From the NCBI GenBank assembly GCA_003999685.1, contig CP021220.1:3162001-3226000 (forward strand): DNA of 64,000 nucleotides, read 5' to 3'. Every line of letters begins with the position of its first letter. Position 1 is the first letter of the stretch. Position numbers and translations under genes: made by a program. The stretch is from Taiwanofungus camphoratus. Taxonomy: Eukaryota; Basidiomycota; Agaricomycetes; Polyporales; Taiwanofungaceae. The notes under the pieces were generated by a model that ran no database searches, was not told where the DNA came from, and saw only the letters and a program-made list of their open reading frames with translations. Positions 22,310 to 24,717 of this stretch are shown one piece after another.

Positions 22310-24403
22310 ATGAACGGTGCACAGACAGCCAGACATGGTAGACCGGCACCAACAGGTGTTACACCCCCTGCACCCGCTGCAGCACCACCTGCACCACCTA
22401 ATCCCGTTCATGCACCCCCATCTAACCGCCAGCCAAACGGTACAGCGGTCAATGGCACACATGCTTCTGCCCATAAGGGTAAGAAGAAGGCTGCCGAGCA
22501 ACCCGTCGACCCTTCTCAGATGTATGAAACATTGAAGAACCGTATTGCTGCTCTCGAAGAGGAGGAGGTGCATGGAGAAGAAGAAGAAAGAAGAGTTGGT
22601 ACGCAACCAATTAATTCCGTCATGTTTCTCAATTTCATCATCGCTTCATAGCTGAGGATGCTCAGAATTCCGTCTCCGGAATGGGAGAGAATGCCATTCA
22701 TGCCAAATATATTGGGCTCGTTGGTGTCCAGCTAATTCTGGCCCGTTTCCGTAGTTTCTTATGGACTTCCCTCAGTTTGCAGAATTAAAGCGAGTTGAGC
22801 GAGATCATGCGAAGGAGAAGCAGAAGTTAGTGAAGGACAAGGATGCGGGTATGTCCCTTTGTCCATCCCCATGTGTCTGCACTGTCCTCAATAATATCCC
22901 CCCCAGCCAAGAGTCAGTTGACGAAGGCGAATCAAACTAAGACGAAGATGGAGAATCTGGCTCGCGAGTTGCAGAAGGTGAACTCGTATAAATAAACTAC
23001 CGGTTCACTTTTAACCATTTTGACAGGATAACAAAAGACTACGGGTAGGTCCTCTCCAGCGGCGAGTCGTTTTTTTCTCACCGGTCCCGTACAGGAGGAT
23101 AGCAAGCGCTTGGCAGCATGTGTGGAGGAGGCCCAGGAGGAGGTGCGTCTTCTGTCTCGTATCTCTTTGACATACGTGTCCGAGCTATCTCGGTAAGATC
23201 ACACAAATGAAGAACGACATGGCAAAACGTGCAGAACGCGCCAAAATCCAGGATTTGAAGTATCGCGAGGCACCTGACATTGTAGTCCGTGTCGTATGTA
23301 AATACCGCGCCGAGCTCTACTTCAAGATCTCGCGGAAGACGAAGTTGTCGCGGCTATTTAATGCATGGACGGAGCGCATGGAGTCAGGCAGCGGGAAGAA
23401 GGGTACACCAGGTCCGACTCCGCAGATGAATGGGACTGCTATGTCCAACGCGGCGAGTCCGAGCGCGACGTTCACAGCGTCGTCAAGTTCTATGCAGTTT
23501 GTCTTTACACACGGCGGACGGAGTCTAGAAGCGGATATGACCCCAGAGGACGCGAGTATCGACGACGGTGATGTGATTCTGGCGGTGGAGATTATGGACC
23601 TCACGGAAGGACCAGGAACTGAAGAGCTGGTGCGTATGTTTTGGTCTGCTATAGTTATGCGACCTACCGTGACACAGGATGAGGGGACGGAACCCCGCCG
23701 TCAGAAGCTAAAGAAAGAGTGGGTAGATAATCCCCGAGAGTAAGTGCGCCTTCGTCGTTGACCGACCTAGCTTGACGATTCTCTCTAGAGCGAGGAAAAC
23801 AATGGAGAGCATCTTTGATGGAGTGTAAGTCTCAATAGTCATTGTATGCGTGATGACAGGCACAAATATTCCACAGCGTCCGTGAGCGGCTGAAGGAGGT
23901 GCTACGACAGTATGAGCTCCGCGAACGACACTTCGAATGTGTTATTAGGTCCAAGGAACTGGAGGTTCTGTTGTCCCGTGCCAGGGCAGCAGAACAAAAA
24001 CAACTAGCGGAGGGTGAAAAGGCTCGAGCAGATAAGTGTGAAGAAGACGTATGTAGCATATCTCAGTTGCGCAGCGGCAGGGTTTTCTCACCGTTATATG
24101 CCCGTAGAACAAACAACTTCGAAAAGAACTGGAAGAAACAACTGAGCAGCAGACAGTCCTAGTAAACAAACTTTTGGCTTGTTGTCACGAAGTGCGTTCC
24201 TTTTCCCCTTTTCTCAAAGGGCAGCTTTGATCAGTTTCCAATGGCATAGCCAAACGAGGAGAAGACCCAACGGTTATTTGCCTCGCTCCGAGAAGAGCTA
24301 GAAACACGTAAGTGCAAGAGTCGTCCGCATCGAATATAACCTGATCTCCGAAACAGATGTCATTGGAATTCATAATCGTCCACCAGAAAGGGCGGTGATT
24401 TGA
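22310..24403 (+). CDS. Taxilin-family coiled-coil protein with an internal SUMO-like domain
   Basis: Taxilins are coiled-coil proteins that bind syntaxins in vesicle traffic. Exons: 22310-22598, 22652-22723, 22783-22848, 22907-22977, 23027-23044, 23095-23142, 23198-23629, 23678-23739, 23789-23824, 23877-24048, 24108-24191, 24250-24307, 24357-24403, giving 1455 nt (484 residues). A Pro/Ala-rich head is followed by taxilin segments (MYETLKNRIAALEEEE, GMGENAIHAKYI, ELKRVERDHAKEKQKL, LARELQKDNKRLR) and later the hallmark LRQYELRERHFECVIRSKEL. Between them, at about residues 215-325, is a ubiquitin-like fold of SUMO type: DIVVRVVCKYRAELYFKISR, TKLSRLFNAW, then FVFTHGGRSLEADMTPEDAS and DDGDVILAVEI, with a Ser/Thr/Pro insert in the middle. 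It lies within one uninterrupted exon, so it is not a chimeric gene call. It lacks a C-terminal diglycine. Confidence 0.86.
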
Positions 24404-24717
24404 CAGGAAGCGGACACTTCGTGCGATAGTGGGTTAAGAACTCGGGCGCGGACTGTATGCGTTTACTCGATGCTGGCGCGCTACTGTAACATGCAGTTTC
24501 TGAATCCCGCTACTTGCATCCTACGGACTATTAAAGGCATGCAAACAACCTGAGAGCGATGATGACGATTATGTGGGAGATATCCCAGAAGACTACAAAT
24601 GAACCGAGTACTAAACGTCCGTGCGAAGTCCATTTGATCCGAGTGACGAGAGCGAAATGAAGGGCCTAAGGTAGCTAACTGTACAATGTCCGTCTAAGCT
24701 AGCGATTATGCTGGATT
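24404..24717. other. Intergenic between convergent genes
   Basis: About 310 bp holding the 3' ends of the taxilin and UAP1 genes. I see no coding run or RNA gene. Confidence 0.5.

Follow-up and report, generated by a model that had tools for sequence, protein, structure and literature searches.

A predicted taxilin of Taiwanofungus camphoratus with a SUMO-like domain encoded by a single symmetric exon

A gene predicted to encode a taxilin in Taiwanofungus camphoratus contains, within the sequence specifying its coiled coil, one exon that encodes a SUMO-like domain. The reading we favour, to which we assign a probability of about one half on the strength of the sequence, is that this domain is a built-in, non-conjugatable SUMO-like docking module, acquired by the taxilin in the form of a symmetric exon (phase 0/0). 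The arrangement looks like the clean gain of a folded domain as a single symmetric exon within a coiled coil, and the form of the protein from which the exon is skipped still fits the Taxilin profile across the same span. If the mature message does include the exon, and if the groove of its domain works, the product would be a taxilin bearing its own SUMO signal, built in and non-conjugated, and a natural genetic fusion that couples the SUMO system to membrane traffic or to co-translational factors.

Structure of the predicted gene

The gene is predicted at 22310-24404 on the forward strand of the window, by which we mean the entire 64,000 nucleotide stretch analysed, positions 3162001-3226000 of C1. 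It comprises 13 exons, all on that strand, with a 484 amino acid product, and its 12 introns are each 48-59 nt in length and all GT..AG. Exon 1 (22310..22598), placed through its GT donor and reading frame, supplies the start codon and a Pro/Ala-rich N-terminus. The N-terminal region of the taxilin is encoded by exon 2 (22652..22723), which is delimited by AG and GT in frame, the match to the Pfam Taxilin family (PF09728) starting at residue 110. The coiled coil then extends through exon 3 (22783..22848), assigned on splice sites and frame as well as on the profile match, and exon 4 (22907..22977), which includes the motif LARELQ, before continuing into two very short exons also covered by the match: exon 5 (23027..23044; 18 nt) and exon 6 (23095..23142; 48 nt). 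Next is the inserted SUMO-like exon, exon 7 (23198..23629), which spans 432 nt and encodes residues 189-332. The taxilin picks up again at around profile position 113 in exon 8 (23678..23739) and is followed through exon 9 (23789..23824; splice sites, frame and profile match) and exon 10 (23877..24048) to exon 11 (24108..24191), which takes it to approximately position 212 of 302. The taxilin hallmark LRQYELRERHF, expected a few exons beyond the insertion, is indeed found three exons on, in exon 10. Exon 12 (24250..24307) is assigned from the gene model, and exon 13 (24357..24404), which provides the stop codon, is the least certain of all; reading through exon 12 instead results in a tail about as short as that with exon 13.

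Exon 7 is an open frame with an AG acceptor and a GT donor, entered and left in phase 0, in keeping with the original prediction of a single continuous 432 nt exon in phase 0 at both ends. When the exon was scrambled by segment swaps that kept its dinucleotides, 5 of 300 scrambles were still open. Its acceptor is AAG, as against CAG or TAG in the other 11 introns, and a second in-frame AAG, which would put the exon start at 23213, leaves 15 nt of uncertainty over the position of the 5' edge. The exon has an ATG of its own at 23207, and its GC3 of 0.611, compared with 0.472 for the remaining coding sequence, is a weak sign of a different origin.

Several other genes could be recognised in the window. 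Convergent with the taxilin gene, on the reverse strand, lies a UTP--glucose-1-phosphate uridylyltransferase (PF01704; 24721-26534) comprised of two overlapping open frames. The reverse strand also harbours a kinase-like gene of the Pkinase_fungal type (PF17667; 7226-8893) and a SAS4-like match (PF15460; 4157-5512), possibly a SAS complex subunit, while Elongation factor Ts (PF00889; 11573-12655) and an M16 peptidase (PF00675 and PF05193; 15449-16468) are found on the forward strand. The Pkinase_fungal match, along with eight six-frame matches to DUF6534, five of which exceed the cut-off, is in keeping with a basidiomycete genome.

The host protein is a taxilin

Taxilin in animals is a coiled-coil protein linked to vesicle traffic, and syntaxins are binding partners of animal taxilins. 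An association of gamma-taxilin with alpha-NAC in animal work is described in PMC4650556. The whole 484 residue protein from T. camphoratus matches the Taxilin profile with an E value of 9e-18 (64.9 bits; cut-off 30.3), and the parts lying N-terminal and C-terminal of exon 7, scanned alone, score 37.3 and 38.0 bits respectively against the same cut-off. The Pfam scans of the whole protein, of the N-terminal part and of the exon-omitted forms used the 484 residue gene model; those of the C-terminal part, of the exon alone and of the loop-shortened domain used a 460 residue model without exon 2. The C-terminal part had no match over a cut-off in NCBIfam, and its best match among PDB sequences reached only E 0.6.

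An uninterrupted coiled coil over the length of the Taxilin family is absent here, as exon 7 breaks the coil. The match terminates at position 212 of the 302 in the profile, and no coiled-coil-like frame was seen among the open reading frames just downstream of 24404, so the taxilin looks short at its C-terminus. A profile search of the genome (33.2 Mb in 15 contigs) returned one Taxilin match, that to exon 10 of this gene; as such a search runs exon by exon, a second taxilin built of short exons could escape it.

A SUMO-like domain in exon 7

Exon 7 alone matches the Rad60-SLD family (PF11976) with an E value of 6.3e-8 (32.8 bits), and the whole protein does so with an E value of 1.3e-6 (28.6 bits), the cut-off being 23.8 bits. 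With Taxilin matches on both flanks likewise above their cut-off, the Pfam check supports the proposal that a SUMO-type domain lies inside a taxilin. We estimate that the domain covers residues 215-322 (23276..23599), also on the basis of matches to SUMOs in the PDB, which agrees with the limits of 215-325 originally put forward. It is split after the helix by a 35 residue loop (23387..23491) rich in Ser, Gly, Thr, Pro and Ala, and when this was shortened the Rad60-SLD match took in positions 3-68 of the 72 in the profile and scored 43.8 bits. The loop is also the likely reason why a six-frame scan of the genome scored only profile positions 40-68 at exon 7, at 17.9 bits and below the cut-off. 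In phmmer searches of PDB chains with exon 7, SUMOs came first (best E 2.3e-6, to 5gjl, the SUMO of P. falciparum), and with the loop shortened the best E value was 1.1e-11, to 4bkg, a chain named SUMO-2. Nothing in NCBIfam matched exon 7. Two single-sequence AlphaFold2 models were weak (mean pLDDT 50.2 and 55.1), with an order of strands and helix that fits a beta-grasp, and neither of these low-pLDDT models had a Foldseek match with an E value as low as 0.001.

The domain ends EIMDLTEGPGTEEL and the protein runs on beyond it, such that there is no C-terminal diglycine; this absence and the internal position together mean that the domain cannot be conjugated, as the original prediction had held.

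Relationship to SUMO, the Esc2-type domain and ubiquitin

The genome's own SUMO gene (C14:1093400-1095400) has, as read, five exons encoding a 101 amino acid product that ends in VGGSA and scores 87.4 bits against Rad60-SLD. The inserted domain, its loop shortened, is identical to this SUMO at 21 of 67 positions, with an alignment score of 98 where the maximum among 500 shuffles was 46. Neither of two further comparisons was significant: the score was 24 against ubiquitin (shuffle maximum 46) and 37 against the genome's Esc2-type domain (shuffle maximum 40), the latter being possibly depressed by the loop having been shortened in the taxilin domain and kept whole in the Esc2-type one. An origin of the Rad60/Esc2 type, hinted at by the name of the Pfam family, was rejected on the scores of 98 and 37. 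Hence, in the earlier description of the domain as SUMO/Rad60-type, the SUMO part holds and the Rad60 part survives as a Pfam label only.

The Esc2/Rad60-type C-terminal domain used here is located at C7:1901800-1904800 and was named by eye; its helix is followed by a loop, basic and of low complexity, in a place similar to that of the loop in the taxilin domain. In total, the genome contains 23 matches to PF11976, one in the window, nine within seven regions and 13 forming two tandem clusters, one on C1 and one on C4, both taken for polyubiquitin. By eye, the seven regions represent the SUMO gene, the Esc2-type gene, two genes for ubiquitin fusions and three further genes of ubiquitin-like type.

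Exon 7 as a probable insertion

Omitting exon 7 keeps the frame and leaves one Taxilin match in which 191 residues lie on 192 profile positions (21-212), scoring 69.4 bits as against 64.9 bits with the exon included. The N-terminal match stops at profile position 107, four residues inside exon 7, and the insertion point falls at approximately positions 107-113. The first 24 residues of the exon (23198..23269) form a helix-like lead-in, ITQMKND...KYRE, and are dispensable for the taxilin match: keeping the first 24 or 27 residues together with everything 3' of the exon lowers the score to 58.7 or 59.7 bits. The start of the exon, MKNDMAKRAERAKIQDLKYR, had been taken for taxilin sequence, a view that is not supported by the profile, which fits best with the whole exon removed. 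Given that the frame is kept and that the taxilin is near-gapless without it, insertion of the entire exon, its start included, fits best, and the simplest reading of the sequence is that the whole of exon 7 was added to a complete taxilin. Alternatively, the first helix of exon 7 may have replaced the adjoining stretch of taxilin, which scores slightly worse (67.1 or 65.8 bits when the first 24 residues are kept and the 21 or 32 residues that follow exon 7 are dropped); as 67.1 is close to 69.4 and Taxilin scores are poorly informative in this part of the coil, the exact stretch inserted or replaced is not certain.

The genome's SUMO gene has introns inside its domain, and the inserted domain has none. 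Searched against the genome, the exon matched itself and one other place, the latter with an E value of 4.48, and no further copy of the inserted domain was found.

Groove and Ubc9-contact positions

Eight groove positions were chosen by us and read from the alignment with the genome's SUMO, their residue numbers being what we take to be those of SUMO-1. Seven of these are kept or conservatively replaced in the inserted domain (F36 as F, K37 as K, V38 as I, H43 as K, K46 as R, L47 as L and R54 as R), and one is lost, K39 being replaced by S. According to passages of PMC8616421, SIMs sit in a groove that SUMO forms between its helix and strand 2, and basic side chains of SUMO touch acidic SIM residues, with K37, K39, H43 and K46 being named.

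On the other face, passages of PMC7891725 identify E380 of Rad60 and D430 of Esc2 as the acid that binds Ubc9. The corresponding position is a glycine in the taxilin domain and D in both the genome's SUMO and its Esc2-type domain, an equivalence inferred from the alignment and from the distance to the C-terminus, which is 26 residues in Rad60 (E380 to 406, where a passage of PMC2946365 places the end of SLD2); the D of the Esc2-type domain lies at the same distance before the domain end. With most of the chosen groove positions kept or conservative and Gly aligned with the Ubc9 acid, docking of SIMs is preferred as an explanation and recruitment of the E2 becomes the weaker rival.

Proposed function and alternative explanations

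In the explanation we prefer, a complete SUMO-type domain would have entered the taxilin gene as one symmetric phase 0/0 exon, and exon 7 would now encode a type-II (non-conjugated) SUMO-like domain projecting from the coiled coil. The groove between strand 2 and helix 1 would dock SIM-carrying proteins, much in the way that FANCI is held by UAF1 through a SIM-like loop, and SIM-bearing partners would thereby be brought to the cargo of the coiled coil, represented in animals by syntaxins and alpha-NAC; recruitment of Ubc9 via the back face of the E2 would be less likely. Since skipping exon 7 preserves the frame, taxilin could be made in two forms, with and without the module, which is perhaps switchable in this way; exon 7 may also be seldom included in the mature message, or be missing from it. 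A bolder form of the proposal, which we advance tentatively and consider doubtful, is that an exon-shuffled SUMO domain in the only taxilin that a fungal lineage possesses constitutes a permanent, non-removable SUMO mark, recruiting SIM-bearing proteins to the vesicle or nascent-chain machinery and turned on and off by exon skipping.

The domain could alternatively have a structural or self-association role, as a folded spacer or a dimer or oligomer element with no link to SUMO biology. Many ubiquitin-like domains serve merely as protein-binding modules, and both the location at the middle of the coiled coil and the loss of one groove lysine and of the Ubc9 acid would suit such a role; a spacer, however, needs neither a groove in which seven of eight positions are kept or conservative nor a significant alignment with SUMO that is not shared with the Esc2-type domain or ubiquitin, and on these grounds we regard it as rather unlikely, if the most credible of the rivals. 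A role in Ubc9 recruitment, in which the domain would bind the back of the SUMO E2 in the manner of SLD2 of Esc2 and Rad60 and so bring sumoylation to the cargo, has the precedent of the SUMO-like domains of Rad60, Esc2 and NIP45, which bind Ubc9 according to passages of PMC2946365, PMC7891725 and PMC12687455, and the acidic IDDGDVI block is retained. The glycine at the position inferred to be that of Rad60 E380 and Esc2 D430, which is D in the genome's SUMO and Esc2-type domain, nevertheless makes this function improbable.

It is less probable again that exon 7 is an exonised passenger, nested or recently captured, that is usually skipped or belongs to a separate transcript starting from the ATG at 23207, leaving a plain taxilin as the working protein. 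The symmetry of the exon, the near-gapless taxilin restored by skipping it, its own ATG, its elevated GC3 (0.611 versus 0.472) and its AAG acceptor among 11 introns ending in CAG or TAG are all features that a passenger might display. They are countered by 144 codons that remain open, as did just 5 of 300 scrambles, by two splice junctions in frame, and by the preservation of a whole domain sequence with its SUMO-like core and groove residues.

Comparison with known systems

Relatives of the SUMO-like exon or of taxilin exon 10 were not found in collections of prokaryote and virus contigs, which by their composition say nothing on fungi. A taxilin with a SUMO-like domain did not come to light in searches of the open-licence PMC literature. 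The papers that surfaced included a canine vesicle proteome and work on animal cells, PMC10158837 proved irrelevant, and the passages retrieved from PMC12751080 contain nothing on built-in SUMO-like domains. InterPro or UniProt may record the architecture, which is quite possibly widespread among basidiomycetes and entered in protein databases.

With the Taxilin family (PF09728) the protein shares two flanks above the cut-off and, once the exon is removed, a match of 191 residues to 192 positions of the profile; it differs in its SUMO-like insert at around positions 107-113 and in a match that ends at 212 of 302. The inserted domain resembles SUMO/Smt3 in its sequence, in a strand-strand-helix-strand order in the weak models and in seven of the eight groove positions chosen, which are kept or conservatively replaced, but departs from it in lacking a diglycine, in being internal to a coiled coil, in its 35 residue loop and in having Gly for the acid that contacts Ubc9. 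The RENi proteins (Rad60, Esc2 and NIP45) similarly possess a non-conjugatable SUMO-like domain in a larger protein, recognised by the same Pfam model, but according to passages of PMC2946365 they carry a C-terminal pair of these domains, as opposed to one that is internal and closer to SUMO. Unlike the taxilin host, they have roles in DNA repair and gene regulation. UAF1 (WDR48), a host protein unrelated to taxilin in itself and in its function, is likened to the present case by description and not by sequence, in that it has a SUMO-like domain within another protein. Both UAF1 and NIP45/ESC2 are cited as examples of built-in SUMO-like domains in passages of PMC12687455, which also describe the SUMO-like domain of UAF1 as binding a SIM-like loop of FANCI, and by analogy the pairing of UAF1 with FANCI would be the best precedent for the mechanism proposed here.
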